DNA from: a virus
Length of the DNA: 39,429 bases
Virus record (IMG/VR): IMGVR_UViG_3300009151_000156
Location: 1-39,429 of that record
Reading direction: 5' to 3' (one strand)
The notes below the pieces were generated by a model. The model was not told the DNA's origin. It did no database searches and saw only the letters and a program-made list of their open reading frames with translations. The position numbers and the translations under genes were made by a program. This document shows, one piece after another, positions 3,201 through 33,854 of this stretch (position 1 is its first letter; every line of letters begins with the position of its first letter).

Positions 3201-3914
3201 CGAGACCACGCCGAGCGCATCGCCTGGATTGCTCGGGCATGTCCCGTAACTTCGGACCGTCAACGACCCGTCAAGTTTAGTGAACTGCACCGTGTAGGAA
3301 GCGGTGGTGTCGTAAGGGGCCCCGCACTGTCCGAGATACTCGGGGCCCGGAAGATAGTCTCCCCAACAAGCGGCCGCGGTTGCGGATGTCGGGTTTTGCC
3401 GGAGGTAGGAATGGGAGGCGGCCGCGGTGAGCGCTGGAGCCCCCATCCCGCCCGTCAACGGATCGATGGCGCCGCGTTGTCGTTTGGCGAGCGTCCAGAG
3501 TTCCTCGGGCGATCCTCCGCCCGCGTCCATGTCGATGCCGCCCGATCCGGGGTCCGAGATCCTCAGATCCTCAGAATCGACCCCCGCCGTCGCGTTCCCA
3601 TAAACGAACGCCGGCATAGCGCTTGCGAGGTTCGCGCCTTCCGGATCTCCGGGCCCCGTGGCCGGGTATTCGGCGGAGTTCTTTGCGAGCATCTGAAAGA
3701 CCTCGAAGAACTCGGCTTGCGTCGGGAATAAGAACCCCGAGGAGTCCGGATTCCGGATCTGCCGGAATGCCTGAAAGAGCGACCAAACGATCCGCCACGG
3801 GACCGACGGGCCAAGCTTGACGCGGTCGTTCATCGCGCGGGCTTGGCTCGCGTACACCCGAGAGGAAACCGGGTCGCCCGGAGCGGGCACGATCGCTCGG
3901 GTGTACGTGAACAT
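213..3914 (-). CDS. Very large tail protein, last gene of the late block
   Basis: This 1233-residue protein is the largest in the phage and the last late gene, ending about 100 bases from the left terminus. No domain is recognised with confidence. It has no signal peptide or membrane segment, is rich in Gly, Ser and Trp, and contains many scattered cysteines (for example [13 protein letters not shown] and [12 protein letters not shown]), unusual for a cytoplasmic phage protein. Its position after the tape measure and a 300-residue tail protein suggests a distal tail, baseplate hub or central fibre component. The N-terminus ([15 protein letters not shown]) sits 9 bases after the previous stop. 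The function is inferred from position only. Confidence 0.8.
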
Positions 3915-3923
3915 CGAAGGGGA

Positions 3924-4310
3924 TCAGGCGGCCGCGACGACAGCCTCGTATGGGACGGAGGCGATCGGGCTTTGAACGCTCGGGGCGTTGAACATCCGCC
4001 CAACGAACGCCTCGCCGGGGAGGATCTTCGCGATGCTCCGGGCCGCGGCGCTGATCGTTTCGCGGACGATGATATATTGCCCCGCCGTGGTCGAAGTGTT
4101 GTGGATCTCAACGAGCATCTCCGCATCCGGGACCGATCCGAGGGCGACCGCTGTGTCGGTGCTTGGGGTTCCGCTCGTGTATCCGTTCGAGTGGTTGTGG
4201 AGCTCGCTTGTCCGGGCGACGCTCACGCCGGAGACGCTACAAGTGATCGAGCCTCCGGCGGCATCCTGAGACACGAGAGAGGCGGTGAGTGTGGCTGTTC
4301 CTGCGGGCAT
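3924..4310 (-). CDS. Small tail-region protein, 128 aa
   Basis: The protein is rich in Ala, Ser, Thr and Val and is predicted to be mostly beta. It includes the segments AEMLVEIHNTSTTAGQYIIV and KILPGEAFVGRMFNAP. A pattern of 'mean value / amount of substance with error term' strands of this kind is common in small virion proteins that decorate capsids or tails. It resembles in style the cement-like protein at 16438-16839. It lies between two large tail genes, so a tail accessory or fibre-attachment role is more likely than a head role. There is no signal peptide. The family is not recognised. Confidence 0.75.
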   Translation of the reverse strand: MPAGTATLTASLVSQDAAGGSITCSVSGVSVARTSELHNHSNGYTSGTPSTDTAVALGSVPDAEMLVEIHNTSTTAGQYIIVRETISAAARSIAKILPGEAFVGRMFNAPSVQSPIASVPYEAVVAAA

Positions 4311-4353
4311 AAGATTGGATTAAGTGAGGGTTTACCGGCGGTTGAAACTGGGA

Positions 4354-4548
4354 TCAAACGAAGCGGGGAATGCTCGAAGCCTGTCGGCGCTGGACGCCAC
4401 TTGATCGCGCGGGCCTCGATTGAGATCCGAGCGGGTGAGAATCCACCTGAGACCACGCGGTCCGCTGGAGGGTGTTTTGCCGGGTGTTGTCCTGAATTTC
4501 ACGGATCGCTTGAGAGATGGGCCCGTTGCCCCTTAGTGGTCGGCTCAT
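4354..4548 (-). CDS. Possible 64-aa ORF in tail region
   Basis: The 242 bases between two tail genes (4311-4552) contain one short ORF whose ATG follows the upstream stop by 4 bases. The protein starts MSRPLRGNGPISQAIREIQ and then becomes very basic and low-complexity (QSRPARSSGVQRRQASS), which makes the second half doubtful. In the overlapping minus frame the stretch 4320-4456 also reads well (SIEARAIKWRPAPTGFEH), so a frameshifted longer gene is possible. Its location matches the compact late operon, but no family is recognised. Confidence 0.35.
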   Translation of the reverse strand: MSRPLRGNGPISQAIREIQDNTRQNTLQRTAWSQVDSHPLGSQSRPARSSGVQRRQASSIPRFV

Positions 4549-8923: not shown

Positions 8924-9834
8924 TCTGGGACGAGTTCATCGCCGGCGGCCTTGAAAAGCCCATGGACGACATCAAGCAACGCCCCGCGGAGCCCGAGGCT
9001 AAAGGCGGAGATAGAGGCCCTGAAATTGTCCTTCAATCGGCGTTTAATGGCCGGCGCCGTGTCCATCGCGGCGACTTGTTCCGCGGGCGTGGCGAGGCCG
9101 TCCGGAGCCGGCGCGACCCGTTCCCGCTTTTGAATAACGCCAAGCCTCACGGCCTCGGCGCGACCGACCGACCGCCGCCCGTACCCGGTGTTGAAGTCGA
9201 CGGGATCGTAAGGCAACCCGAACCGGCTAAGGTTCTCCCACACCGGGTCGTTGACGCGGGCGATCATTCGCCCGCCGTAAATCGTCCCGCCGGCACGCAC
9301 CCACCGGTCCTCCCAGTAGCGGGGGTTCTCCGCCACAAGGGCCCCGGCTTTGATTCGATAACCTCGGGGAACACGGCGCGGGGAGATGCGTCGGAATTCC
9401 GCGCACGGAAACAGGAGGAGCGCCCCTTCGGTTTGGGCCTGACGCCATTGCCCGAACCCGTGAGCCATTCGAAGCTGGGTGTCGATGATCAGGTTCAGCC
9501 GGCCATCCGTTCGGAGGTCCGAGATCGTTCCCTCGCGCCCCGCCGCCGGCTGATAGTCGAGCGAATCCAGGAGTTCTTTAAGCTCGGTCCGAACGCTCGC
9601 GCGGTTTGGGAGTTGGCCCGGCGCTTGGCTGAGGCCCGAAGCCATCGTGTCGATGCGGTCCTTAACCACTTGCAACACCTCGGTCTCCATCACGCCCGCC
9701 GAGAACACCGCGCCCTGTCGCACCTGGACCGGCAATTCGGACAACTCCGCCGACGACATATCGGTTGGCAAAAGCTTCCGCTCGCTCGCGAATCGGAGCG
9801 CCTCGGCGAATGGTATCTGGCCCGCTGAGATCAT
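8920..9834 (-). CDS. Head morphogenesis protein, Mu gpF-like
   Basis: The start at 9834 gives a 4-base ATGA overlap with the tailspike stop and a 304-residue product. The segment RFGLPYDPVDFNTGYGRRSV followed by RAEAVRLGVI is a pattern seen in phage minor head / head morphogenesis proteins (SPP1 gp7 / Mu gpF group) from this host group. The N-terminal half (LRFASERKLLPTDMSSAEL, then AVFSAGVMETEVL) also fits that group. Such proteins bind the portal or capsid interior. It is unusually far from the portal (9 kb), separated from it by fibre genes. Confidence 0.65.
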   Translation of the reverse strand: MISAGQIPFAEALRFASERKLLPTDMSSAELSELPVQVRQGAVFSAGVMETEVLQVVKDRIDTMASGLSQAPGQLPNRASVRTELKELLDSLDYQPAAGREGTISDLRTDGRLNLIIDTQLRMAHGFGQWRQAQTEGALLLFPCAEFRRISPRRVPRGYRIKAGALVAENPRYWEDRWVRAGGTIYGGRMIARVNDPVWENLSRFGLPYDPVDFNTGYGRRSVGRAEAVRLGVIQKRERVAPAPDGLATPAEQVAAMDTAPAIKRRLKDNFRASISAFSLGLRGALLDVVHGLFKAAGDELVPE

Positions 9835-12689
9835 CGCGCGGTCGTGGTTGAGATCCGGAGCGTTCCCGACGCTAGGTCGATTGCGCCCCCGGTCGGGTTG
9901 AAGAGTGTCACCCTGCAGAGGTCGTTGGCCGTCGCGGCGCCCGTTAGGATCATCCCTTGGGTGTCGAGAGAGAACGAGGCCTGGACGATGTCTCCAGGAA
10001 GAGCGCCTAGGACCGTGATTCCGCTGAGTTGGATTGATCCGCCAGCGGCGACCGATGCGGGATCCCACGTCAAGGTCCCGAACCCTTGCACCGTAAATCC
10101 AACCTCCTGCCCCGCCTGCATTAGGCCCGGCGTGAATCCGGTGAGGTTAAGCGGGTTTCCTGTCGCGGGATCAACAAGGCGCGCGACGACATAGGACGTC
10201 GGCGCGTCGAGATAGATGTCGGTGATCAGACCGTCCACCGGCGCGGGCGTTCCGAGAAGGTGAACAAGTTGTCCGGCTTGATGGTAGCCTCCCGCCAACC
10301 AGTTGTAGACCGCTGATCCAACAACGCCTCGGACCGCGTTCGTTGACGGTTGCGCGTTGCAATAGTCGCCCGGAACTGTTCGGGACCCCGAAGCGGTGAT
10401 GATGATCGGCCGCGGCGGTCGTTGGGATTGGTCCATGATCACGTCCCCGAGCGAGAACGTCTGCCCAAATGGGACACCGTTCGTTGACCAAAACACCGTC
10501 CCGGCGTTGTGCCCTTTCTGAGACGGCGAACTCACCGGGAAGTTGTTCCCGCTCGCCTGGATCGAGAGGTTCGATTCTGCCTGTAAATCCTCGAACTCGG
10601 AGAACGAGAACGAAGGCGTTCCGATGGGGTTCACCGCCGTGTTGTTTTTGATTACAACGGGGAAGCGGACGTCGGCCGTGTAGTTCGCGTTCCACGACCG
10701 CGTGAAGTTCATCACAAACGCGGTCTTTCCCCATGGCGCGCGCGCGTAATTGTCGAGGATGTTCCACTGCCCGCGCCCGCTTGGTCGAAGCGATCCGGCG
10801 TGGAGAACGTTCCCCTTGATCGTGCCGATCGGCATCGGTTGAAACACGGCGATCGCCGCGGCCCGAAGTTGGAGCTCGGCGTAGATGTCGCCGGTCTCGA
10901 AGACGTTGTTTGCGATCGTGTAGCGATCGACCGGAGCTTGCGGCCCGTCAAACCCGCCAGCGAAGAACGCCCCGACCCCGAGGATCTGCTGCGTCGACGA
11001 CATTTTCGCCCCGTAGTTTCCCGCAACCGTGAACCGTTGAACGCCGATCATCTCGACGCATGTCGTCGTGAGGGGTTCCGCAAGAACGAGGCCGCCACCG
11101 GTCGTCGTGACGTAGCTTTCGTCCATGTCCGCGAACCGGTTCCCCGAGACCACGACGTCGGTGTAGTACTCGGCGTGGATCCCGTAGCGGGCGCGGGTGA
11201 TCGTGTTGTCCTTGATCGTCGCGAGATGTATCTGGTTCGTCTCGTTTCCCCAATTGTCCGCCGACCAACCGGCGACTGAGAGAGCGAACCCTCCGAACCC
11301 ATTCGATCCGTTCCAAAGGAAGTGGATGTTGTCCAAACGGTTTCCGGTGAGCTCAACGGATCCGTCGGCGAGGTTTGGCTCCCATGCGACCCCCCCGATG
11401 AACATGTTGGTAAAGACTGATCCCGTGACTCGCCCGCGATGGCAGAAGATGTTCGTGTTCGGAGAGCTCATCGCGTTGTTCTCTCGGATCACTCCCGACC
11501 CCATGTTCTCGAATCGGCAACGATCGACATGGAAGGAATTCATCACCGCATCCTTGGAGATGTTAATTGCCCAACCTCCGCCGACGCCGACGAAGTTAAG
11601 GTCGCGAACGTAAACGTCGCCTCCGAAAAACTGCATTTTCCGAGGCTCCCAATCGTATCCCAGACTAACCAGTCCTCCGCCGTCAACGACGACGCTCCCG
11701 GCAAACACCCAATAGTTCGGACCGCTCACCGTTCCGCGGATGTGGATCAAGCGGTTGGCTGGGACATTCAACGCGGCGCCGTGGTAGGTCCCCATGTAGG
11801 TCGTCGTCCCCGCCGGGAAGGTGATCTCCTGCGTCGCGTTCATTGCGTCCTGGACTTGGATCTCGTCGTTCGTCGATCCGTCCGATTTCGCGCCGAAGTC
11901 CCGAACGTTGAGCGCTCGGCGATCGCGCCTTACCCAATAGACGGTCGGCGAATCCGTGGTCGCAAAACAGGTTCCCCGGTTCGTTCCAGTGATGTCCGCG
12001 GGAAGCGAGTTTGTCGGGACGAGATGAAACGTCCCGCCGCCGTCGCCCGCCGTCGCAAAGTATCCGCGGACGAACACCGTGATGTTCGTCGTCCCCGATA
12101 GGGAGTCGGTCCGGGTCGCGAGGAGGTCTGCAATCGAGTTTACCGATCGGCTCGCCGTTAGGCTGTTGAGCGTGTTTTGAGCGGAGGCGATCGCGGCGTT
12201 GTATGATGTCGCGATCGATGCCGGAAGTCCGGTCACCGACGCTGTGAGAAACGCGATCGAGGAGTTCGCAGAGGTTGTGAGCGACGAGATCAGGCCGCTC
12301 AAATAGTTCGAGCTCGTGGTGATGTCCCCAACCCTCGCCGTGTTCGTGGCCTGGATCGCCGACACCAGCGAGTTGGACGTCCCCGAGATTCCGGAGGAGA
12401 CGCCCAAGATTGCTCCGTTGAGGTAGTTCGACGTGGCGTTTATGTCGCCAATCCGCGCCGAATTCGTGGCGATGAGCGCGGCCACAAGGCTGTTTGACGT
12501 GCCATTTACCTGCCCGGCGGTTGCGCGGAACAGGAGGTTGGTGTTGATGGCGAAGAAGTTTGTCGAAGCCCCGGTCAAGATCCCGTTTGTCCCGGTGATC
12601 ACGCTGAACGTCTTTGTTGATGGCAGCGGGCTTTGCGCCATGCCAACGAAGGAGAGGAGGAACGACAGGAGGAACGGTAGGTGCTTCAT
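9831..12689 (-). CDS. Beta-helix tailspike/fibre with signal peptide, 952 aa
   Basis: Residues 1-20 (MKHLPFLLSFLLSFVGMAQS) form a clear Sec-type signal peptide with an AQS cleavage-like end. Residues 60-140 contain two copies of a GTSNSLV...ATNSARIGD...SNYL repeat. A pectate-lyase-3 type motif NVRDFGAKSDGSTND (261-275) begins a right-handed beta-helix (to about 720), with repeated 'N-x-F-x-N-x-x-x-G' turns. The C-terminal 230 residues look like separate beta domains. Such proteins usually bind or degrade surface polysaccharide as tailspikes. A signal peptide on a phage spike is odd: either it is exported to the periplasm or surface, or the peptide is a Verrucomicrobial-phage peculiarity. Confidence 0.85.
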   Translation of the reverse strand: MKHLPFLLSFLLSFVGMAQSPLPSTKTFSVITGTNGILTGASTNFFAINTNLLFRATAGQVNGTSNSLVAALIATNSARIGDINATSNYLNGAILGVSSGISGTSNSLVSAIQATNTARVGDITTSSNYLSGLISSLTTSANSSIAFLTASVTGLPASIATSYNAAIASAQNTLNSLTASRSVNSIADLLATRTDSLSGTTNITVFVRGYFATAGDGGGTFHLVPTNSLPADITGTNRGTCFATTDSPTVYWVRRDRRALNVRDFGAKSDGSTNDEIQVQDAMNATQEITFPAGTTTYMGTYHGAALNVPANRLIHIRGTVSGPNYWVFAGSVVVDGGGLVSLGYDWEPRKMQFFGGDVYVRDLNFVGVGGGWAINISKDAVMNSFHVDRCRFENMGSGVIRENNAMSSPNTNIFCHRGRVTGSVFTNMFIGGVAWEPNLADGSVELTGNRLDNIHFLWNGSNGFGGFALSVAGWSADNWGNETNQIHLATIKDNTITRARYGIHAEYYTDVVVSGNRFADMDESYVTTTGGGLVLAEPLTTTCVEMIGVQRFTVAGNYGAKMSSTQQILGVGAFFAGGFDGPQAPVDRYTIANNVFETGDIYAELQLRAAAIAVFQPMPIGTIKGNVLHAGSLRPSGRGQWNILDNYARAPWGKTAFVMNFTRSWNANYTADVRFPVVIKNNTAVNPIGTPSFSFSEFEDLQAESNLSIQASGNNFPVSSPSQKGHNAGTVFWSTNGVPFGQTFSLGDVIMDQSQRPPRPIIITASGSRTVPGDYCNAQPSTNAVRGVVGSAVYNWLAGGYHQAGQLVHLLGTPAPVDGLITDIYLDAPTSYVVARLVDPATGNPLNLTGFTPGLMQAGQEVGFTVQGFGTLTWDPASVAAGGSIQLSGITVLGALPGDIVQASFSLDTQGMILTGAATANDLCRVTLFNPTGGAIDLASGTLRISTTTAR

Positions 12690-12693
12690 GGGA

Positions 12694-13386
12694 TTAAGAG
12701 AGGTCGGGGCCGGAGAATGCGGCGGCTCCGCCGCTGACGAACATGGTGTGCCAAGTCGTCGTGGTTCCGTTGAGGAGTTGAAGCTTCCGGTTCAGAAGCC
12801 GCGCGTTGCCCGGAGCGGAGACGCCGGACGATCCGAATGACAACGAAGGAGAGCTCGAGCTTCCGGTGAGTTGTGGAGCGAACCACGCCTGGGCGTCGTC
12901 GTTCCAAAGCTCCCAACTTGTCGAATTCCATCGGGCATTCAAAGGGCCCGCCACGACGCCGGCGTCGTCCACCGAGAATGCCGGCGATGAGACATCCCCG
13001 GAGCATCGGACAACATGAAAAGTCCCGTCGCTCGCATCGAGGACGAGGGTGTAGTTCGTCTGCAGGAGGTAGTTCACGAACGTCACCCCGCCGAGCACCG
13101 CCACTCGCGCCGTGGCGATGAGGCTTTCCAAAAGGTTCACGCTGTCGTCGTCGGGGACGGTGATCGTGTCCGGTTTCTTCGAGTTGCCGATCCAGACTTG
13201 ATAGGTCCCGCCGAATAGCATCGTGCTGAAAAACCCGGCGCCGTTCGTCGTCACGAGGACGTCGTCGGTTGGGACAACGGCTCCCGTCCTGATCTTCGGG
13301 CTGTTCGTCGTGGGACGGAACAGGACGGTCGAGAGCGTGAGCGCTTGACCGTTCGATTTCCGAACGAATGAAAGGACGGTGGCCAT
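12694..13386 (-). CDS. Fibre/adhesin-like virion protein, 230 aa
   Basis: The N-terminal domain (MATVLSFVRKSNGQAL ... TNGAGFFSTMLFGGTYQVWIGN) resembles a carboxypeptidase-regulatory-like or fibre attachment beta-sandwich: a default-value/'G-x-Y-x-V' strand pattern. The middle has FHVVRCSGDVSSPAFSVDD and the end is Ser- and Gly-rich. It ends 4 bases before the tailspike start, so it may be a spike-attachment adaptor. No signal peptide is present. The family is not recognised. Confidence 0.7.
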   Translation of the reverse strand: MATVLSFVRKSNGQALTLSTVLFRPTTNSPKIRTGAVVPTDDVLVTTNGAGFFSTMLFGGTYQVWIGNSKKPDTITVPDDDSVNLLESLIATARVAVLGGVTFVNYLLQTNYTLVLDASDGTFHVVRCSGDVSSPAFSVDDAGVVAGPLNARWNSTSWELWNDDAQAWFAPQLTGSSSSPSLSFGSSGVSAPGNARLLNRKLQLLNGTTTTWHTMFVSGGAAAFSGPDLS

Positions 13387-14104: not shown

Positions 14105-16372
14105 TTAGTTGCGGGCTACTTTTCGGGCCAGCTTCTCAAGCTTTTCGTCGAGCTCCTGGATTGCGGAGACGAAGACCGGGAAGAGCTTCCCGTATCCCGC
14201 CTCAAGCCGGTCCGGGTTCTCGTCATAAACGAGCCCCGGAACTTGGAAGTGTTTCTGTTGAACCCTCTGGAGTTGTTGGGCCATGAATCCGGAGTCCCGG
14301 ATTCCAACCTTGGATCCATCGCGGGATTTCCAGTCAAAGACCCACGGCTCAATGTCGCGCACGAATGCAAGTCCACCGATGAGTCTCCAGAGCTTTTGCT
14401 TGTCCCGCTCGTCCGACAGCGACGTGATCGTCGTGACTTGGCAGCGGAGCGTGGCGACCGAGGAATTCCCGAGCGTGATCTCGTTCGCGATCGTCGCGGT
14501 TGACGGCTGGGCGTTGTACCCGATGCACGTGACGTTTCCGGTTCCTCCGGTGAGACTGGATCCTGCGACGCTGCCAAGCGCAGTGCATTGGCTGAAGTTC
14601 CCGTTCCAAAGTGCGCGATGCCCCACCGCCGAGTTGTCCGTTCCGGCAACGATCGTCACCAGCGCCTGATTCCCGACCCCGGTGTTGTTGGCTCCCGTCA
14701 CGCCGCCGGAGAGGCAGGATTGACCGATTGCGGTGAGCTGCGATGCGGTTGACCCGGCACTTAGCCCCGCCGAGCTTCCCACGACACACGCTGCCGTCGT
14801 CACACCCCTTGTTCCAACAAAGATCCCGCTTATCGTCGAATCGAACGCTGCTGTGAGACTTCCGCAGGTCCAATCCGAATCCCCGGTGTCGTCACCGAGC
14901 CGGGCTGACATTTTCGCAGCACTGACTCTCTTGATTGCCGGATGTCCCGCACTGGCTGCCCCGAAACACAGCCGAGAAAACCCCGTGCCCGCGTTGTTCG
15001 ACAAGATCAGGATCCCGTCGCCGCTCGACTGAATGGTTCCTCGAAGCGTCGTGCTCGTTCCGCTCCAAAACGAATGAGTGCCGGTCTGGTGGACGTCCTT
15101 TGGACGACTTCCGGCCGCGGCCCCAATTGTGTACAGGTTGTCCGTGAACAGGAGATTCCCGGTCAACGTTCCGCCAGCGAGCGCAAGGTAGGTTGCTGCC
15201 GCGGTTGCGCTGGTGATTGAGTCGGTGATCCCGTAGCCCGCCAGAGTCGTTGCCTTGGCAGCGTAGCCGGACGCCACCGCTGCCGCCGTGATCCCGTCGG
15301 TGATCCCGTATCCGGCAAGAGTCGTCGCCTTGGCGGCGTATCCGGACGCTACCGCTGCGGCCGTGATTCCATCGGTGATCCCGTAGCCCGCCAGCGTCGT
15401 CGCCTTGGCGGCGTAGCCGGACGCCACCGCTGCCGCCGTGATCCCGTCGGTGATCCCGTAGCCCGCAAGCGTCGTCGCCTTGGCGGCGTATCCAGACGCT
15501 ACTGCTGCGGCCGTGATTCCATCGGTGATCCCGTAGCCCGCCAGAGTCGTTGCCTTGGCGGCGTAGCCGGACGCCACCGCTGCCGCCGTGATCCCGTCGG
15601 TGATCCCGTATCCGGCAAGCGTCGTCGCCTTGGCGGCGTAGATTGATGTCGCCGCCGTGATCGTGAGGAACGTCCCCAGCGAAGTCGCTAGTCCCGTGAT
15701 CTTGGCGATCGAAAGCGTGAGCCATCCCGGATCGGAATAGGTTCCCGTAGTCACGACCGCATCGGCGATTCCCGCCGCGGCCGCCGTGGTCGGCTTCGAG
15801 CTCAACCACTGCCAAGGGAACGACACAAGCCACGCGGGGTCCACGTAGCGCCCGTTGGTCGAGACGCCGTCGGTGATCCCTGCCCCGTTCAACGTGTTCA
15901 ACGTTGGGGAAGTCGTTGGCCCAATGAGATCACCGAAGAGGCGCGTCCGCGTCGATGCGATCTCCGCGCCTCCGCCGGATTGAATGCTCGGCGTAACCTC
16001 GGGGTTCTGCGGGATCGAAACCCGGAGTTGCCCCAGGGCGACTTGGTGGAGGTCCGCCTCGGCGCGGGTGAGGATTGTCTTCTGCGAATCAGAAAAGGGA
16101 ACGGCATCGCCGAGCCGGATCTTCAACGCCTGGATCACAAGCCAGACGGCATCCTGGAAAAGCTCGGGCGGAATCAGCGTCGCGTCCTGGTCGATCTTGT
16201 TCCCCGGATGGCTCGCGATGAATCCGCGAACCCGAGGAACGACGACCGCGATTGCGTCCAGGACGGGATCCCCTTGAGTGACGGCGAGCGCCGCGGTCCG
16301 GAGTGAGTCGAGCTCCGGCGCCTGCAGCGCGGAATAGACGTCGGCCGTCGTGATGGGAATCCAGTTTGGCAT
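14105..16372 (-). CDS. Fibre: connector-like N-terminus, repeats, S74 chaperone end
   Basis: The 755-residue protein has four parts. Residues 1-130 (starting MPNWIPITTADVYSAL, with VRGFIASHP and a 'IPPELFQDAVWLVIQALKIR' helix) resemble small Mu gp36/DUF1320-type head-tail connector proteins. Residues 250-390 hold six copies of a 25-residue AAKATTLAGYGITDG-based repeat. Then comes a trimeric beta-helix with 'N-T-x-V-G-x-x-A-L' turns (about 515-640). The end (from SDERDKQKL, about 653) is a peptidase S74 intramolecular chaperone domain, which trimerises and usually self-cleaves near the SD. It lies next to capsid genes rather than distal tail genes. Confidence 0.85.
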   Translation of the reverse strand: MPNWIPITTADVYSALQAPELDSLRTAALAVTQGDPVLDAIAVVVPRVRGFIASHPGNKIDQDATLIPPELFQDAVWLVIQALKIRLGDAVPFSDSQKTILTRAEADLHQVALGQLRVSIPQNPEVTPSIQSGGGAEIASTRTRLFGDLIGPTTSPTLNTLNGAGITDGVSTNGRYVDPAWLVSFPWQWLSSKPTTAAAAGIADAVVTTGTYSDPGWLTLSIAKITGLATSLGTFLTITAATSIYAAKATTLAGYGITDGITAAAVASGYAAKATTLAGYGITDGITAAAVASGYAAKATTLAGYGITDGITAAAVASGYAAKATTLAGYGITDGITAAAVASGYAAKATTLAGYGITDGITAAAVASGYAAKATTLAGYGITDSITSATAAATYLALAGGTLTGNLLFTDNLYTIGAAAGSRPKDVHQTGTHSFWSGTSTTLRGTIQSSGDGILILSNNAGTGFSRLCFGAASAGHPAIKRVSAAKMSARLGDDTGDSDWTCGSLTAAFDSTISGIFVGTRGVTTAACVVGSSAGLSAGSTASQLTAIGQSCLSGGVTGANNTGVGNQALVTIVAGTDNSAVGHRALWNGNFSQCTALGSVAGSSLTGGTGNVTCIGYNAQPSTATIANEITLGNSSVATLRCQVTTITSLSDERDKQKLWRLIGGLAFVRDIEPWVFDWKSRDGSKVGIRDSGFMAQQLQRVQQKHFQVPGLVYDENPDRLEAGYGKLFPVFVSAIQELDEKLEKLARKVARN
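15213..15644 (-). repeat. Six 75-bp tandem repeats in the fibre gene
   Basis: Six 75-base units encode near-identical 25-residue repeats. Synonymous differences alternate between odd and even copies: the odd units have GCCGCCGTGATCCCGTCGG, the even units have GCGGCCGTGATTCCATCGG. This makes a 150-base higher-order unit repeated three times and points to recent duplication of a dimer. The lowest-coordinate copy, which is the last in the protein, diverges (ITDS). Confidence 0.9.
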
Positions 16373-16882: not shown

Positions 16883-17818
16883 TTAGCGGATCGCCTCAGT
16901 CTGGAGGAGCGAATCGGTAGCGATGATCGGCACGCCCTCGTAAGAGGACGGGGTCGGGGCGATGATCCCCTGCCCGGCGCCGGGAAGGCCCGCGCCTTGG
17001 CCGAAGATCGACACCGTTCGCGACGCCTGGAGCAGCTGTCGCTGAACGCGGTTGCAAAAGATGTGGGTCGGACGGATCCCGACCGGGAACTTCGCCATCG
17101 CTTGAGCGAGGAGGAGGTCGGTCAATCCTTTGCCGGTCTGAATCGTTAGATTCTTGATGACGACCAACGCATGGATATTGAGGAACTCGATCCCGACCCA
17201 ACCTTCGATTGAGTTGTTCCAGACCGTTTGTTTGGTCGTTCCATTCGTGACCGTCTGCTTTCGCCACTCGGCGACGCTTAAGGTCATGTTGTTTCCGTAG
17301 ATGAAGTTGAAGAACCGCGGGTCAACCACGGCGAGGTAACACGAGGACGCGGCGTTCGCGGTCGATCCGGTCGCGTCGATTGTGTGGGCCGCATCGGCGA
17401 AATCGATTCCGCCGGGGAAGCCCTTCGGGTCGTTTGCGCGCCCGTACCACATCTGGGATCCGAGGGCCAAGAGGGTGCCCTTCATGTGTCCGGATGCCTC
17501 GGCGGTCATCACATAGTCGGGGCCCTGTTCCGATGCGTTGACGATCGCGTTGTCGATCTCCATCTGGGAGTCGAGGTAGTACGTCTCGTGGATTCGGTTT
17601 GCGTAAACCGACTTCTGAGGAGTGCGACCTTCGTTGGCGTTGCGGAATCCGACGGTCGGGAAAGTCGATCGCACAAGCGACCGGAAGGAAGTGCCCTTGA
17701 TCGTGCGCGCGGGAATGATTTGAGCTTCCGGCGCAGCGGTTAGGTTTTCCTCGATCAGGCCAATGTCGGTGGCTGTTCCGTTGATCTTCGCGAGATCAAG
17801 AAGCGTGAGTACTGGCAT
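16883..17818 (-). CDS. Major capsid protein
   Basis: A 311-residue protein follows the protease/scaffold gene. Segments LIEENLTAAPEAQIIPARTI, GTSFRSLVRSTFPTVGFRNA and the C-terminal YEGVPIIATDSLLQTEAIR match a major capsid family seen in phages of Verrucomicrobia and Planctomycetes, with an HK97-type fold. It does not look like Mu gpT itself, so the capsid gene may come from a non-Mu lineage. It forms the icosahedral shell around the scaffold. Position and ending support the call strongly. Confidence 0.8.
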   Translation of the reverse strand: MPVLTLLDLAKINGTATDIGLIEENLTAAPEAQIIPARTIKGTSFRSLVRSTFPTVGFRNANEGRTPQKSVYANRIHETYYLDSQMEIDNAIVNASEQGPDYVMTAEASGHMKGTLLALGSQMWYGRANDPKGFPGGIDFADAAHTIDATGSTANAASSCYLAVVDPRFFNFIYGNNMTLSVAEWRKQTVTNGTTKQTVWNNSIEGWVGIEFLNIHALVVIKNLTIQTGKGLTDLLLAQAMAKFPVGIRPTHIFCNRVQRQLLQASRTVSIFGQGAGLPGAGQGIIAPTPSSYEGVPIIATDSLLQTEAIR

Positions 17819-17858: not shown

Positions 17859-18977
17859 TTAGGCGGCCGCGGCGGCGGCGCGTTGCGCTTTCTGATGCGC
17901 CAGGGCCCGATCAAAGCCCGTGGCGGTTCCGGATCCTTCGTTCTTGGCGCTCGCTTCCGCGGCTTCGGCGGCGGCGTTTGCATCAGCGACGTTCTTTCCG
18001 TTGCCGGACGTCTTCACGGTCTTTGAAAGCCCGTTGAGAATCGCCAGCCCGTTGGAAGCGCTCGCGGTGAGAATGCCGTCCCACGTCGCACGCTGCGCTT
18101 CGGTGATGCGGCCGTCCTGGATGGCCGCATTGATCGCGGCCTCGCGGATTCCCTTTGCCTCGTTGGCGGCGGTTGCCTTGAGCGCGGCGAGTTCCGCCTG
18201 CAGGCTTGCGACCTCGGCCTTCGCCGTGTCGCGTTCGTTGGCCGCCGAGGCGCCGGTGTTGAGTCGCCCGGCAAGGGCGGTGATGGAGGAGGCGATCGCG
18301 TCGTCGGACGCATCCGCCGCCAGATTGATTCCGAGGCCGGCGAGAGTGCCGACCAAGAGGATTTTATTCATGGGGGGGGTTCTATTGGTTGCCGCATTCG
18401 ATGCGGCTTCGTTCACCGCGTCCGCGGCGAGATTGGGTTCAGGGGTGAGTCCAACGCTGACAAAACCGGTCGGCTCGAAAATGAGCTTCCCGTTCTCGAC
18501 TCCCGTCGGGGCAACATCGAAACGAGGGGAGAAGAAAAGCTTCTCGCGACCGTTGACGGCATCCGCGCCGAGATCGTTAAACACCGGCACGCCATAAAGT
18601 CCTTCCGGCCGCGCCTCCAATCCAACCACGCGGCCAAGCTCTCGCTTGTCCGTTTCTGTCGAGCCTGGGTGGTCGGGGTGACGGTAAAAGACGGGTGCGC
18701 CGCGAAACCAGCGACGAACCATTCCAGACGGAGAGGCGAAGCGGTCCGAAACTGCTTTCGCGTTCTCCGGCGTGATCCGCTGGATTGCGTCCACCTTCAC
18801 CACGCCGTCTTCCTCGTAATAGTTGGCGGTCGGGAAAGCGGCCCGGAATGCGTCGGGGTTCTTGAGCGCGAAAACGTTTGGCGCGTCGCCGAGCGGGGCA
18901 AAAAGCGCGGAGCCGTCGGCGCCGACCGCCGACTCGTTCGCCACGCTTGCCTCAAGCTGAATTGAAAGGTTCTTCAT
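17859..18977 (-). CDS. Prohead protease with C-terminal scaffold, Mu gpI-like
   Basis: Residues 1-195 match Mu I-type phage proteases: IQRITPENAKAVSDRFASP, FRGAPVFYRHPDHPG (catalytic His region), and later LFFSPRFDV and FEPTGFVSVGLTPEPN. Residues 200-372 are Ala/Glu-rich coiled coil (SLQAELAALKATAANEAKG) typical of a scaffold. In Mu the scaffold Z is also made from an internal start of I. An internal Met (MNKILLVG, 18371) exists here, preceded by a run of eight C's on the coding strand. The protease would mature the head and degrade scaffold. Confidence 0.8.
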   Translation of the reverse strand: MKNLSIQLEASVANESAVGADGSALFAPLGDAPNVFALKNPDAFRAAFPTANYYEEDGVVKVDAIQRITPENAKAVSDRFASPSGMVRRWFRGAPVFYRHPDHPGSTETDKRELGRVVGLEARPEGLYGVPVFNDLGADAVNGREKLFFSPRFDVAPTGVENGKLIFEPTGFVSVGLTPEPNLAADAVNEAASNAATNRTPPMNKILLVGTLAGLGINLAADASDDAIASSITALAGRLNTGASAANERDTAKAEVASLQAELAALKATAANEAKGIREAAINAAIQDGRITEAQRATWDGILTASASNGLAILNGLSKTVKTSGNGKNVADANAAAEAAEASAKNEGSGTATGFDRALAHQKAQRAAAAAA

Positions 18978-18984
18978 CGTCGTT

Positions 18985-20619
18985 TTAGTTTCCCCTCAAA
19001 CCGAGAAGGACTTGTTGGCCTAGTGCGGTTCCGAGGATCTCGACCGCCCTCTCGTCAATGCCTCGCCGCTTGAGATAGTCGGCAAGGCCCACATTGATTC
19101 GATCGAGCTCCGGCAACATCTCAACGTCCGGGAGGCTTCCGATCCGCTTGATCTCCCCCCGCAATGGGGCAAAGAAGTCACCCAACGCTTCGGCGACCTT
19201 ATCGGTCGTTGCCTCGACGAACGCGGCGCCCGGAGCCTCGTTCGCTCCCGTGGCCTCGGGTTTCTTGTCAATCGCCGGATCAGGATTGCCTTCTGGATCT
19301 TTCCCGTCGGGGATCGGATCGCCCTTCGGAGCCGGCGCCGCGGTTCGCGTGATCACGTCCGAACCCGGAGCCGGGGTGCTTCGGTTGTAACGCTCGAACG
19401 TCTCCGCCTTGTCCAGGGGTTGGCCCGAATCCAGGAGGAACTGGTCGACCTTGATCTCTTGGGCCGTGTCCACCGTGATTGGCGGGATGATCTGGATCTT
19501 CGCCAATGGTTCGACCCCTTCCCCGAAAAGGTAGGCGACCACTTGAGGGTCGATCCGCTTGTTCAGAATCTCGGAGAGTTCGCGGGCGTCGTCCTGTTCG
19601 AGCGCCTCGATCTCCCCCTGTTGAAGGCTCGCCCCTTGCCCCTGCCCGGAGCCCGCCGACATTGTCGCGAGATCCGCACCAAGCCAGAGCGCTGTGATCC
19701 ACCGGTCGCAGTATTCGACGAGCGCCGGATGGGGAAGGGTTCCCGCCCCTCCGGCTATAATGAGCTCCACGGCGGCGTCCAGATTGATCACCCCGGCGCC
19801 GTCACCCACGAGAGCGGCGACCATTGCCTTCATGTCGTCCCACTGCGTCGTCCCTTTCGTTGCGGGGGATTTCCCGAGGACAAACGGCAAGCCGAACTTC
19901 TCCGTGTAGTTTGCCCAATCGTTGAGGCTCATCTGCTGAATTGCGATGATCCCAACCGTCGCCCGCATGATCCCGTCGCTCACGCTCACCAACCATTCGT
20001 TTTCCGGCATGTCGTACCCGATGCCCAAGCCCGGCTGGGGAAGCCATCGGAGTTTACCGATCCGCGCCTCGAAGCTCCAAAGCGGCCAGAATCGGAACTC
20101 GGCGGTGAAGGGCCTTGATCCTTGGGCCGGCTTCCACGTGATCTCGTGGACGGCATATCGATTTCCGATTGCCCGCGACATCTGCCGGAGGAGTGTGCCA
20201 AGCCCTCCGCGGACGTCCGCTTCGAGGAGTTCCGTCGCGATCACGCCGCGGTAGAAATCCTGAAGGGCTTTCTTGTGCTTCTCCGCCTCCGCTTCTCGAC
20301 CCATGGAAGCGTCCGCATCGATGAGGATGTCCCATCGCATCCGCCCGAGCCTCTTCTCGCGTTTGCCGGCAACGTTCGAGACGACGTGGTTTCGGGTCCG
20401 AATAGCATCCCAAAGCTTGGCGATCGTGAACCACCCCCGCTCGAAGGCGTTGAGTTGTTCGAGGATGTTCGCCGGAACAAGCGAGGTCGCCGGGATCTTT
20501 TGAAGGATCATCCGGCGAATCGTTTCCGCCTCGCCCTTTATCGTCTGCTCGGGGGCGGGATTCCCGCCGGGATCAAGGACCGAGGCGGTCGCTGTGATAG
20601 ATGGGTTCGGATCAGACAT
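18985..20619 (-). CDS. Portal protein, DUF935 (Mu gp29-like)
   Basis: A 544-residue protein with the DUF935 pattern: LGRMRWDILIDADAS..., DFYRG helix, RAIGNRYAVHEITWK, FRFWPLWSFE, NDWANYTEKFGLPFVLGK and WLGADLATMSAGSGQ. The FGLPFVLGK and 'L-G-x-x-L-x-x' segments are diagnostic of this Mu gp29 portal family. The C-terminal 130 residues are Pro/Asp-rich then helical. The portal forms the dodecameric DNA gate and docks the terminase. It overlaps a short upstream ORF by 8 bases (ATGTCTGA). Confidence 0.9.
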   Translation of the reverse strand: MSDPNPSITATASVLDPGGNPAPEQTIKGEAETIRRMILQKIPATSLVPANILEQLNAFERGWFTIAKLWDAIRTRNHVVSNVAGKREKRLGRMRWDILIDADASMGREAEAEKHKKALQDFYRGVIATELLEADVRGGLGTLLRQMSRAIGNRYAVHEITWKPAQGSRPFTAEFRFWPLWSFEARIGKLRWLPQPGLGIGYDMPENEWLVSVSDGIMRATVGIIAIQQMSLNDWANYTEKFGLPFVLGKSPATKGTTQWDDMKAMVAALVGDGAGVINLDAAVELIIAGGAGTLPHPALVEYCDRWITALWLGADLATMSAGSGQGQGASLQQGEIEALEQDDARELSEILNKRIDPQVVAYLFGEGVEPLAKIQIIPPITVDTAQEIKVDQFLLDSGQPLDKAETFERYNRSTPAPGSDVITRTAAPAPKGDPIPDGKDPEGNPDPAIDKKPEATGANEAPGAAFVEATTDKVAEALGDFFAPLRGEIKRIGSLPDVEMLPELDRINVGLADYLKRRGIDERAVEILGTALGQQVLLGLRGN

Positions 20620-20869
20620 GGCGGGGCGGGGCCGAAAGTGGAGTTGGTTCGGGCAAGTGGGACCCCTTTAGCGGCCCTTCAGCCGTCGATATGAGCCCTC
20701 CGGGCAGTTCGGGAGGGTGAGGACAGCTCGCGCGGCGTCCTGGGGCATTTGCGGGCGTCCGCGGGGCGGTCTGGGAGGAGTCCGGCCGGGCCCCCCCTGG
20801 ACCCCTGAAGCGAGGGCCCATTGGCGAGGGGGAGGTTCCCGGACGGGGAAGCGTTAAAAAGTGCGTCAC
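20612..20869 (-). CDS. Pro-rich 85-aa ORF between terminase and portal
   Basis: A GTG start overlaps the terminase stop by 4 bases (GTGA at 20869) and the stop overlaps the portal start by 8 bases, as expected for coupled translation. Against it, the protein is Pro/Gly/Arg-rich low-complexity sequence (for example RFRGPGGARPDSSQTAP), typical of GC-rich DNA read by chance. Another minus frame contains a 26-codon ORF (MPQDAARAVLTLPNCPEGS). Small gpW-type head-joining proteins often sit in this slot, but neither frame resembles one. Confidence 0.3.
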   Translation of the reverse strand: MTHFLTLPRPGTSPSPMGPRFRGPGGARPDSSQTAPRTPANAPGRRASCPHPPELPGGLISTAEGPLKGSHLPEPTPLSAPPRHV

Positions 20870-23052
20870 GAGATCACCCTCATTCTCCGGTTCTCTCGGG
20901 TGTTCACCGGTTCATAGGCGAAGGGTTGAGCGCGGCCGCTCACCTGGACAATGAGGCTCGCAAGGCGGGCATAGCTTCGGGCCAGCCCTAAGTGGTTCTC
21001 GACTCCGTCCACCCAATCCTCCGCGCCGGTCTTCGTGTCGCGCTCTTTCCGGAGGTTCAGCAGATGGGTGTCTAGGGTCGCCATCGAAACGCCGGGACCG
21101 ATGGCCGTCTGCGGAAGCCGGGCCCGAGGAAGTCCGCGGATTGTCTTCGCGCCCTCTGGCCCGACGGATTCCAGGACTCCTTCCGCCGGGGTGAGGAAGT
21201 CGTTCACCGCCGCCTGGATCGACTCGCCCCGGTTGCATTTGATGAGCGGGTAAAGCTTCCCGTCTTGGGTCCAACCGATCGTTTGTTGGACTCCCTTTGC
21301 CTCGCCCGAAACGAAGAGGACAGCGGCGGCCTTGATCCCTTGCCACCGACCCTTGGCCCCGTCCCAAGTGATCCCGCACCCGATGCTCGAAAGGTGCGAC
21401 TTCTCAACATCGCTCCGCGGCATCGACGGAGGGGTGTAATCTTCGAGCCCGTTTAGCGCCAAGACGAGGCGCTTCGTTAGATCCGGTTCGCCGCCGGCGT
21501 CCAGGAACACGGTCTCGATCCCGAGTTGGTCGATCAGGACGGGGAGGCGCGACGCCATCGATCCGGAGGCGATGAGCTCTGACCACACAAGCCCGGAGAC
21601 CGACGGCCCGCGAACCTCATCGACCCACAACCAGCAACGGGGCCCCATGTCGCAACCCGCGAACCGACCCTGTCCGCCGTTCATGGACATTGAGTAGGGC
21701 TGCGCGGCTTCCTGACTCTCGGACATTCCGAGGGCGCGCGAACGATCGAGGACGGATTGGACGATGGGCTGGGCCGCGCCCGCGTTCGGGATCGCGAGGC
21801 GGTCGCAGTAAAACGCGACCATTGCTTCGCCCGTCGGATCGGAGAACGCCGAGTACCAGTCCCCGGTGATTTCCTCCATTGAGATGGCGGAGATCGTAAG
21901 CTGGGAAACCCGAATCCCGAACTTGGCCTCCTTCACCCGCTCGGGGTTTTGCGCCATGAACTCGACCGCGTCCCGGTCGATCGCTGTCCCACAAGAGATG
22001 CACGCCGCGTAATAAATCCCCGTCCGATTGAATCCGCCCTCGGCCGTGATCACCGGGTCCGAACGCTTCGGGGTCCGGTCGATCGCGAGGCGAACGCATC
22101 GCGGCCACGACTCTTCGAGGTTCTGCCGGAGCCCACAACCGGCGCACGTATATTGGCCGGTGTGATAGCTCGACGCTTTGACCCGCGAATTCTGCCCGGC
22201 GCCGGAGACTCTTTGCGTTCCAATGAACGCCGTGAGCGCCACGGGCGAGTTGGTCATACGACCCGATACATACCCGATGTTCCTCGTCGGGATGTCGTCC
22301 ACCTCGTCCAGGATCGCAACGTCGATCGTGATCGAGGTCGGCGGCTTATGCATTCCGCAGAAATTGCCGAACGCTTTTTTGGTCCCATCGGTGACGGTGT
22401 AGGACTCTTTCCGGTCGATCGTTTTCCCGGAGGCGTTCTCCGTCTTTCCCATCTGGATCATGTCCGCCATCCATGGGTACAGATCCAAAACGTTCGGGCG
22501 GAACTTTTGGCCGACGATCTCTTCGACCTTCGGCTTGTCGGGAAGATAGCAACCGACCGAACAAAACCGGATGGCGGAAAGGTACGCCATCGCGTTAAGT
22601 TCGAGAATCGTCTTTCCCCACTGCGCCCCGCCGCCGACCGCGATCGAGGAACCCTTGAGTTGTCCGGCGGCGAACTTAACGCCGTCGACCCACACCTCTT
22701 CGGCGTCGATCGTGTTCCGGAGAACCTTGTCGAACCAGTCGATCACCACTTCGAGAGGCTTCCGCCCCTTCGTTGAGAACGGGCCGGCGCTGCCGTCACG
22801 TTTGAGAACCTTCGCATGATCGCGGACGAACTCGGCAAACGTTCGGACGTTCGGGGAGTTGGCGGTCCGCTTGTTTCCGGCGATGCGTTGGTCCAGTGCG
22901 GAAAGGGCCCCTCGCCCGTGGTTGTCGCGAGAGATGGCGGAGGGGACGCCATTCCTGACGGTCGTTTGGCCGCTCGCTTTGCCGACACTGGCACGGGTTG
23001 TCGGGGTTTCTTTGTTCCCGTCTGCGGCGGGAAAAAACGGTTTTGCCTTCAT
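20866..23052 (-). CDS. Terminase large subunit, GpA-like
   Basis: The start MKAKPFFPAADGNKE at 23052 overlaps the small terminase stop by 4 bases (ATGA); the frame is open further upstream but there shadows the previous gene. The 728-residue protein has Walker A GGGAQWGKT (140-148), Walker B VAILDEVD (245-252), and two Cys pairs (YTCAGCGL and AACISCG). Walker A with Q-x-GKT plus a Cys cluster is the lambda GpA-type terminase layout rather than Mu gp28. A nuclease domain follows (RFAGCDMGPRCWLWVDE, FLDAGGEPD). It powers headful DNA packaging and cuts DNA. Confidence 0.75.
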   Translation of the reverse strand: MKAKPFFPAADGNKETPTTRASVGKASGQTTVRNGVPSAISRDNHGRGALSALDQRIAGNKRTANSPNVRTFAEFVRDHAKVLKRDGSAGPFSTKGRKPLEVVIDWFDKVLRNTIDAEEVWVDGVKFAAGQLKGSSIAVGGGAQWGKTILELNAMAYLSAIRFCSVGCYLPDKPKVEEIVGQKFRPNVLDLYPWMADMIQMGKTENASGKTIDRKESYTVTDGTKKAFGNFCGMHKPPTSITIDVAILDEVDDIPTRNIGYVSGRMTNSPVALTAFIGTQRVSGAGQNSRVKASSYHTGQYTCAGCGLRQNLEESWPRCVRLAIDRTPKRSDPVITAEGGFNRTGIYYAACISCGTAIDRDAVEFMAQNPERVKEAKFGIRVSQLTISAISMEEITGDWYSAFSDPTGEAMVAFYCDRLAIPNAGAAQPIVQSVLDRSRALGMSESQEAAQPYSMSMNGGQGRFAGCDMGPRCWLWVDEVRGPSVSGLVWSELIASGSMASRLPVLIDQLGIETVFLDAGGEPDLTKRLVLALNGLEDYTPPSMPRSDVEKSHLSSIGCGITWDGAKGRWQGIKAAAVLFVSGEAKGVQQTIGWTQDGKLYPLIKCNRGESIQAAVNDFLTPAEGVLESVGPEGAKTIRGLPRARLPQTAIGPGVSMATLDTHLLNLRKERDTKTGAEDWVDGVENHLGLARSYARLASLIVQVSGRAQPFAYEPVNTRENRRMRVIS

Positions 23053-25044: not shown

Positions 25045-25488
25045 CTACTTCGTCGGGGTGATGCCGTCGGGGATCGTGTTCGTCGTCGAAAGAGTCGTCG
25101 CGGCGTTCGTTCCCTTCGGGCCGTGAAGGCGATGAGCCGCGGAGATTTTCGCCGGGCTGTTTCCTCCCGCGAGGTCGCGAGTCGCTCCGCCCGTGGCGAA
25201 ATCTTCCTCGATCGCGTTCGCGTTCCACGAGGAGTCCAAGGCGATCGACGAGATCACCGCCGGCGCGAACACGTTGCTACCCGTGGGCACGACATGAAAC
25301 TGGGTCCTGATGAACCCGATCCGGATATGGGGGGCCGGTGCGGTCGGATCCTGGGAGAGGTCGAGACCGATGCACGAACTGGTGACGCTCGTGATGTTCC
25401 CGTTGTTGACTCGGGAGGCGCATCCCGAGGCAAGAGCGACCAGCGCAAACAGGGCGGCGAGAATCGCGAGAAGGTTTTTGAGGGGCAT
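25045..25488 (-). CDS. Lipoprotein, 147 aa
   Basis: A signal peptide with lipobox LASGC (residues about 19-23) marks export and lipid attachment. The mature part has ITSVTSSCIGLDLSQ and HIRIGFIRTQFHVVPTG strands. It lies directly downstream of the holin-like gene in the same direction. Similar lipoproteins accompany the holin-like gene in prophages of Verrucomicrobia, as far as I recall. It may help disrupt the outer membrane or act at the cell surface; neither is shown. It lacks the proline-rich composition of Rz1. Confidence 0.7.
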   Translation of the reverse strand: MPLKNLLAILAALFALVALASGCASRVNNGNITSVTSSCIGLDLSQDPTAPAPHIRIGFIRTQFHVVPTGSNVFAPAVISSIALDSSWNANAIEEDFATGGATRDLAGGNSPAKISAAHRLHGPKGTNAATTLSTTNTIPDGITPTK

Positions 25489-25520
25489 AGCTTGGTACGG
25501 TTGGGGATTGGGAAACGGGG

Positions 25521-25961
25521 TCAGACCTTGTTCGCCGGGGTTGTCGATTGATCCCCTTCGGCGGCGAGTCGCTGCTTCATCTGGTCAACAACCTCTCGGA
25601 CGCCAGTTCCCGCGAGACCGAGGAACGCGACCGCCTGCGGATTTCCGCCAAGGCACCCGGTGTAGTTGTCGAGGAGGGCGAGAGCTAACCCAAGGCTCGC
25701 CGCAATTACGGGGAGCCAGTGTTTCCCAATTCTCGGGACCGCGGATTTCAAGGCGGAGACGATCAAGGGGATCGCAAACGGGATCAGGGCCAACCACGGA
25801 TTCGATACCGGGGGCAAAGCGATTGCGACCGGGCCGCCGGAGTCCAAAGGGGACACCGCCCCGAGGAGAGGAACCGCGGCCAGGACGGGACCGGCAAAGG
25901 CGGCCGCGAGGACAAAGGCGCAAAGGCTGATGGCGACGGCGAGGAGGCGGGGGATTTTCAT
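25521..25961 (-). CDS. Holin-like membrane protein, 146 aa
   Basis: It has an N-terminal hydrophobic segment (LLAVAISLCAFVLAAAFAGP), then transmembrane helices near 57-75 (LALIPFAIPLIVSAL) and 82-98 (HWLPVIAASLGLALALL). The C-terminus contains FLGLAGTGVREVVDQMKQR, a 'G-x-x-G-V-R-E-x-x-D-Q' ending I associate with holin-like proteins of Verrucomicrobial phages. It would permeabilise the inner membrane during lysis. It starts a new minus-strand block after an intrinsic terminator at about 26.1 kb. Confidence 0.6.
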   Translation of the reverse strand: MKIPRLLAVAISLCAFVLAAAFAGPVLAAVPLLGAVSPLDSGGPVAIALPPVSNPWLALIPFAIPLIVSALKSAVPRIGKHWLPVIAASLGLALALLDNYTGCLGGNPQAVAFLGLAGTGVREVVDQMKQRLAAEGDQSTTPANKV

Positions 25962-32795: not shown

Positions 32796-33854
32796 ATGAA
32801 CGAAGAACCCCAAGAAAGTCTGGTCCCGCAAGGATTCAGCCCCAAGACAATCACTCACGCCGCCGGAGACATGGTCAATAAAGCGACGGCGGACCTTCCA
32901 GAGGATCAAAGGAGCGCGATCCGATGGCTTCACAACCACGCCTGGGAACAGTCCCTTTCTCAGGAGGCGACCGCCAAGCTCATCGGATACAGCGGCGCCG
33001 CGGTTTCCCAGCTTTTCAGCGGGAAGTATTCCACGCTCGAACCGATCGTGGCCTCGATCGAATCCTACCGGAAGCTCTGGACCGATCGACAGGCGGGGAA
33101 GGGGATCCCGTTCATTGAGACGTCGATGTCCAAACAGATCTGGAACGTTTGCCATGGGGCCCGTAAGTTTCAGCGGGTCGGACTCATTTATGGGATTTCC
33201 CAGATCGGGAAAACGGCCGCCTTGAAGGAGTATGAGAAGGCTTTCAATCACGGGTCCACGATCCGTGTTGAGGTTCCCACCGGCGGATCGCTTGGGAGTT
33301 TCCTGATCGCCTTGGGATGCCGTCTCCGACTCTCGCCGTCCCTTAGCGACCGCGACTTGAAACGCCGGATCATTGAGGCCTTCGACGACAAAATGGTTTT
33401 GATCGTGGACGAGGCCCACCGAGCGATCAGCCCGACAGTGACCCGCGGCGGGATCCTCACCCTTGAGTTTATCCGCGAACTCTTCGACACCGCCCAATGC
33501 GGGTTGGTGATTTGCGCGACCAACGTTTTCCGGCGCGCTCTTGAGGAGGCCGGTCCAGCGCACGAGCTCTTGAAACAAACCCACCGGCGCCGGTTCTGTC
33601 AGCTTCAACTCCCGGACCAACCCAAGCGGAAAGACATCGACGCCATCTCCGCGGCCTTCGGTCTCGAACCAAGCGCCGGTGAGGCGCGGGTTCTTGAGGA
33701 GCGGATCATCGCCGAGGACGCCCTCGGAATGTGGATCATGCTTCTCAGAATGGCCTCCGAGATGGCCGCCAAGAACAAGCAGCCACTCTCTTGGAAACAC
33801 GTCCAGCGCGCCCATCTCGGCAGGCTCCGGATGGAGAGCGGTTCAGAGGAGTAA
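32796..33854 (+). CDS. B: MuB-like AAA+ ATPase
   Basis: The 352-residue protein has an N-terminal HTH (SQEATAKLIGYSGAAVSQLF, 55-74), Walker A GISQIGKT (133-140), Walker B VLIVDEAH (201-208) and a sensor-like GLVICATN segment. This layout (HTH plus AAA+) is that of Mu B / TniB-IstB proteins, which bind target DNA and stimulate the transposase. It follows the transposase by 29 bases. The C-terminal helical part (RMASEMAAKN) may contact MuA. Confidence 0.9.
   Translation: MNEEPQESLVPQGFSPKTITHAAGDMVNKATADLPEDQRSAIRWLHNHAWEQSLSQEATAKLIGYSGAAVSQLFSGKYSTLEPIVASIESYRKLWTDRQAGKGIPFIETSMSKQIWNVCHGARKFQRVGLIYGISQIGKTAALKEYEKAFNHGSTIRVEVPTGGSLGSFLIALGCRLRLSPSLSDRDLKRRIIEAFDDKMVLIVDEAHRAISPTVTRGGILTLEFIRELFDTAQCGLVICATNVFRRALEEAGPAHELLKQTHRRRFCQLQLPDQPKRKDIDAISAAFGLEPSAGEARVLEERIIAEDALGMWIMLLRMASEMAAKNKQPLSWKHVQRAHLGRLRMESGSEE

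Follow-up and report, generated by a model that had tools for sequence, protein, structure and literature searches.

The viral record IMGVR_UViG_3300009151_000156 (IMG/VR; 39,429 nucleotides, analysed over its full length and called the window here) encodes a 952-residue tailspike-type protein that begins with a predicted Sec signal peptide, and we propose that this spike is a genuine phage tailspike whose precursor would bear a cleavable signal, be exported, mature in the periplasm and join virions at lysis. We put the probability of this reading at about 0.48, slightly short of an even chance. The observations behind it are the sequence features of the spike, the recurrence of such signals on related fibres, and the position of the gene in the late operon. 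To our knowledge, tailed phages are held to build and dock their spikes and fibres in the cytoplasm, and in the literature searched, which lacks most subscription journals, we found neither a tailed-phage spike or tail fibre reported to carry a signal peptide nor a description of fibre assembly through Sec and the periplasm. In one paper, a lack of signal peptides is taken as support for a phage origin (PMC6199706).

Anatomy of the spike and its predicted signal peptide

The spike gene and its parts are arranged as follows.

9831..12689, minus strand: tailspike- or fibre-type protein of 952 amino acids with N-terminal predicted signal peptide; ATG start; tail-fibre PHROG match at 2.7e-7
12636..12689, minus strand: predicted Sec signal peptide, residues 1-18, cut between GMA and QS (home-made n/h/c rule, 5.34)
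12690..12693, minus strand: gap of 4 nucleotides (nt) from the stop of the upstream gene to the spike ATG
12522..12632, minus strand: N-terminal module, residues 20-56, with the motif VITGTNGILTGASTNFFAINT, common with the fibre of a Pedosphaera metagenome-assembled genome (MAG), by BLASTP
11919..12146, minus strand: domain matched by tail-fibre PHROGs, residues 182-257, before the beta-helix (phrog_17640, residues 182-289)
11805..11912, minus strand: pectate-lyase-like beta-helix start, residues 260-295 (NVRDFGAKSDGSTND; PF12708 sub-threshold)
9846..10079, minus strand: C-terminal domain, residues 871-948, seen several times at fibre ends in other phages

An earlier note on this DNA, made from the sequence alone, had described a 952-residue beta-helix protein; the open reading frame (ORF) has that length, and the beta-helix is weakly supported, as the PF12708 match to residues 260-295 stays below the cut-off (E 3.3e-4, 21 bits vs a Pfam cut-off of 27). 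Tail-fibre families match the domain before it (phrog_17640 at 2.7e-7, phrog_18162 at 6.5e-5), the residues from about 60 to 180 are repeats rich in serine, threonine and asparagine, and the C-terminal domain is matched by 8 of the 17 phage records found by tblastn. A PDB sequence search gave no match at E 1, and the AlphaFold2 model computed from the single sequence was discarded (predicted local distance difference test, pLDDT, 32.7). We regard the spike as a candidate depolymerase or lyase-like enzyme, with both fold and activity predicted from the sequence. Relatives over the whole length were limited, in viral contigs, to two 100% identical copies; in genome contigs, 33 stretches fit a pattern and none of them encodes a relative. 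When compared with 384 class genomes, the spike matched 16, always by short domains, and one of these, the C-terminal-domain match in genome G235, is the signal-bearing fibre of locus L075 discussed below.

Signal peptides were scored not with SignalP but with a home-made predictor of n-, h- and c-regions, whose strict version demands a score of 5 or more. The spike N-terminus (MKHLPFLLSFLLSFVGMAQS) passes with 5.34 and a best cut between GMA and QS; it has a positive n-region, an uncharged hydrophobic h-region and small residues at -3 and -1, so that the Sec signal quoted in the earlier note is borne out as one of the Sec/signal-peptidase-I type. Five of the 32 window genes tested pass the loose rule, and three score 5 or more, namely the spike, a lipoprotein-like ORF and a holin-like ORF. 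The background, with every pass counted whatever its score, is 1 of 129 for internal Met sites in the fibres and 44 of 2000 for shuffles of the whole protein; when residues 2-30 alone are shuffled, 468 of 2000 pass, which means that most of the signal score reflects hydrophobic make-up. The same rule finds no signal in any of 11 fibre and neighbouring genes taken from seven phages that lie outside the group (six of Proteobacteria and one labelled Dunaliella virus).

This dependence on plain hydrophobicity leaves some room for the explanation that the N-terminus is not a Sec signal at all, either because translation starts at Met17 (MAQSPLP...), whose ATG is in frame, or because the stretch is kept and plugs a hydrophobic pocket of the tail. 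We consider this quite improbable. The ATG of Met1 lies 4 nt past the upstream stop, and because this spacing resembles that of the neighbouring genes (3, 5 and 11 nt at three junctions), a start at Met1 is favoured over one at Met17, which would lie 52 nt past the stop. Neither the MAG fibre nor the L075 fibre has an in-frame ATG past the signal within its first 60 codons, and, as described in the next section, the signal sequences diverge while their pattern and cut site persist.

Recurrence of signal-bearing fibres

The MAG fibre (575 amino acids; L035 9597-11324, minus strand) has its own signal and the shared module. A first search of the MAG with the spike was weak (E 0.016), and the match proved to be the N-terminal module; in a single BLASTP comparison, residues 8-56 of the spike align with 26 of 50 positions identical (E 1e-6). 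The identity is 9 of 22 in the signal and 18 of 28 in the following module, and the MAG signal stays signal-like. Signal peptides drift in their letters while the pattern stays, and the window and MAG signals appear to have done likewise, diverging in letters and keeping the pattern and cut site. A DNA pattern for this N-terminal region returned only the two identical copies from viral contigs and 1 of the 384 class genomes, the Pedosphaera MAG itself. The MAG fibre gene is followed by a large ORF that we read as tape-measure-like, and the tail contig and terminase contig of the MAG are taken as one prophage.

A terminase profile search matched 14 of the 384 class genomes, and 13 prophage-like regions plus the MAG tail contig were examined. 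Since L067, L072 and L073 end before the fibre, 11 regions are readable, and by our reading 6 of these (L035, L070, L071, L074, L075 and L076) contain a signal-bearing fibre-type gene. Under the strict rule, restricted to ORFs of at least 300 amino acids, 4 of 14 loci remain, L076 dropping out with a score of 4.2 and L071 with a protein of 214 amino acids. The L075 fibre has the C-terminal domain of the spike (29 of 77 identical), the L070 fibre has a K1-lyase C-terminal domain (2e-27), and the L074 fibre has, immediately after its signal, a match to the anchor domain BppL_N at residues 25-44 (E 2.4e-4, under the cut-off) and then GH43 (1.1e-8), a family that falls just under the cut-off in L076. 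The predicted signal on the spike is not a one-off, as such signals recur among related fibres. A set of four (L070, L071, L079 and L080) combines a conserved signal and conserved adjoining ~25 residues with different bodies, the proteins having 698, 214, 222 and 803 amino acids, and in the signal the synonymous divergence (pS) exceeds the non-synonymous divergence (pN) in 6/6 pairs (0.25-0.51 vs 0.11-0.23). A module search in viral contigs found only two members, both already known.

Viral contigs were collected through a tail gene of ~600 amino acids that neighbours the fibre and that has only a sub-threshold Pfam match, to Lsr2, and no PHROG match at 0.01. A profile search with this bait gave 46 IMG/VR loci, some of them near-duplicates, in which 13 of 172 same-strand ORFs of 300 amino acids or more score 5 or above, spread over 12 of the 46 loci. 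In the controls, 7 of 1105 internal ATGs reach such a score, and none of 30 ORFs on the opposite strand does. As several ATGs per ORF were allowed, we estimate a fair background at perhaps 1-2%. One of the 13 (L104 410-1825) was rejected as a carboxypeptidase, not a fibre. The other 12 read as fibres, only some of them with family support: GDSL and a tail-fibre match (1.3e-22) in L080, Kelch and a virion structural match (8.9e-9) in L085, weak GH28 and LamG in L095, a tail-protein match (0.0044) in the 405-residue ORF of L098, and S74 (7.6e-9) in L110, of which L111 is a near-copy. No family match at 0.01 was found for L091, L092, L096, L097, the 602-residue ORF of L098, or L105. In L110 (1311-3377), signal and S74 domain are followed by a C-terminal transmembrane-like helix, and S74 self-cleavage could release an exported, membrane-held trimer. 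In L091, the fibre-type ORF (858-3452) and a neighbouring protein of 182 amino acids (3975-4523) each have a signal peptide, an arrangement that would suit joint export of fibre and adaptor.

The late operon, the proposed route and its alternatives

Judged by its gene content, the window is an ordinary-looking Mu-like phage, with a Mu-type portal (PF06074) and protease (PF10123) above the cut-off and a MuB-like gene in which AAA_22 is above and MuB_C below it.

16883..17818, minus strand: major capsid protein (PF20911 2.3e-16, GP7-type)
17859..18977, minus strand: Mu-like protease/scaffold (PF10123 1.7e-10)
18985..20619, minus strand: Mu-like portal (PF06074 4.3e-49)
20866..23052, minus strand: terminase large subunit (PF05876 1.6e-4, below cut-off; 67% to the Pedosphaera MAG contig)
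32796..33854, plus strand: MuB-like AAA protein (AAA_22 4.2e-13; Phage-MuB_C 0.003, below cut-off)
12694..13386, minus strand: gene upstream of the spike, 230 amino acids, no family above cut-off
14105..16372, minus strand: second fibre with S74 chaperone domain and without signal peptide (PF13884 6e-7; signal rule negative)

The host is probably a verrucomicrobial, soil-type bacterium, because the window terminase and that of the Pedosphaera sp. MAG (Verrucomicrobiota), the nearest relative linked to a host, share 67% identity across most of the protein. An ORF of 716 amino acids (30616-32766) occupies the MuA position before the MuB-like gene; neither Pfam at 0.01 nor a tblastn search of 50,697 phage records gave a match to it. 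The second fibre contains about six near-identical GYGITDG-type repeats, and its signal-less N-terminus resembles a connector-type protein fused to the fibre. At 25045-25961, the lipoprotein-like ORF (MPLKNLLAILAALFALVALASGC) adjoins the holin-like ORF, phrog_1299 E 0.0065. Several late genes start a few nt past the preceding stop and lack an obvious Shine-Dalgarno sequence, a layout suggestive of coupled translation.

The spike gene lies within one same-strand run with the Mu-like portal, the protease and the GP7-type major capsid gene, and this late-operon position makes expression in the lytic phase likely, for which the late genes of Mu offer an analogy, and a lysogenic role unlikely. The earlier note had suggested that the protein might modify host surface polysaccharide during lysogeny, which we do not favour for a gene that sits 4 nt behind its neighbour in a run of head and tail genes. 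More generally, a conversion factor secreted by the lysogen to remodel its own surface would fit a signal peptide on a lyase-like body, and lambda Lom, a signal-bearing membrane protein whose gene adjoins tail genes and which lysogens express, would be a parallel (PMC12309495). The gaps of 3-11 nt around the spike on the same strand of the late operon, and the fibre-type architecture at both of its ends, make this very improbable.

The route that we propose for the spike comprises export, cleavage, periplasmic folding and joining of the virion at or after lysis, all of which we infer. In the late lytic phase, the spike would be translated along with the head and tail genes, pass through Sec and be cut after Ala18, and it would then fold and trimerise in the periplasm of the Gram-negative (verrucomicrobial) host, the new N-terminus of the mature protein beginning just before the conserved N-terminal module. 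On cell lysis, the mature spike would attach to the tails of freed virions as a receptor-binding depolymerase, and surplus spikes may remove receptor polysaccharide from debris. The meeting of spike and tail is placed at or after lysis because tails of tailed phages form in the cytoplasm. A mature protein that joins the tail would best account for an anchor-type module placed right after the signal, and the suggestion in the earlier note of an unusual assembly gains support in so far as the signal is common to related fibres and stands directly before such modules. The wider proposal, that Sec export of receptor-binding fibres is the rule in a whole lineage of verrucomicrobial phages and phage-derived clusters, with fibres that mature in the periplasm and do not reach the tail before lysis, is put forward tentatively and with less than even confidence.

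The serious and main rival is a free surface-acting enzyme, that is, an exported protein that never joins the virion and works late in infection, in the periplasm, on the surface or outside the cell. As a free depolymerase or adhesin it would open the biofilm, or clear receptor polysaccharide from debris to which progeny would otherwise stick. The second, signal-less S74 fibre of the window phage could then be the receptor-binding protein, and sugar-active or esterase-type domains (GH43, GDSL, weak GH28) occur among the signal-bearing relatives. Against it stand the anchor-type N-terminal modules conserved directly behind the signal, and L074-L076, where no second fibre-like ORF was noticed beside the signal-bearing one; on balance we think it unlikely.

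Several points weigh against an exported spike that joins the virion. The signal rests on a home-made predictor, and export is a prediction from sequence. We know of no precedent for attachment after lysis. The window and MAG signals have about equal pS (0.44) and pN (0.47), without residue-level constraint. Signal-bearing fibres are absent from 5 of the 11 readable genome regions (L064, L065, L066, L068 and L069) and from 34 of the 46 viral contigs, many of which are incomplete. Our own scan of Akkermansia phage DTMo-2021a, where the bait gene has a distant relative, found no signal-bearing ORF on the coding strand, and verrucophage P8625 is reported to be without signal peptides. Finally, 5 of the 6 genome examples (L070, L071 and L074-L076) are in domesticated-looking clusters, not in plain phages.

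These clusters are compact runs of terminase, portal, protease, capsid and tail genes; in the three for which the distance was measured, the terminase lies 14-19 kb from the host gene, and neither an integrase nor a tape-measure-type ORF was noticed in the five. They lie at fixed host sites, between a fabI-side flank and gatCAB in L074 (G136), L075 (G235) and L076 (G094), and before miaA-hflX in L070 (G225) and L071 (G250), with host genes named as we read their sequences. When L074 is compared with L076, capsid, bait gene and the host gene gatB differ to similar degrees (pS 0.14, 0.15 and 0.16; pN 0.008, 0.008 and 0.006), the terminase is slightly faster (pS 0.18, pN 0.067), and the signal-bearing fibre is the divergent gene, with 41% identity. 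The clusters look like vertically kept, domesticated elements, perhaps a gene-transfer-agent-like element of Verrucomicrobiota.

Known systems and significance

Pectate-lyase-like phage tailspikes, such as that of P22 and the annotated tail spike of Acinetobacter phage vB_AbaM_B9, whose gene adjoins match H1, resemble the spike in the putative beta-helix start motif, the tailspike-type domain before it, the phage C-terminal domain and the late-operon gene; they differ in that the examined genes have no signal peptide (0/11) and the window spike has one. The MAT fibres of Bdellovibrio (PMC10769870) are phage-like trimeric fibres behind a signal peptide that is followed by a conserved beta-rich domain of ~130 amino acids, and they indicate that the fold class is exportable; unlike the spike, they are encoded by bacterial genes outside a phage late operon and are found on the predator surface and vesicles. 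Secreted and signal-arrest-release (SAR) endolysins such as Lys44 of fOg44 are likewise late phage enzymes that use Sec, but are lysis proteins rather than virion fibres (PMC6116005). Lom of lambda shares the signal peptide and the location between tail genes, and is an outer-membrane beta-barrel rather than a fibre (PMC12309495).

In the annotation of phage genomes, signal-bearing fibre genes may be mistaken for secreted enzymes of the host and thrown out. If the recurrent fibre signals are true, completion of the host-recognition parts would take place outside the cytoplasm in some phages, and this would point to depolymerases that are exported and foldable.

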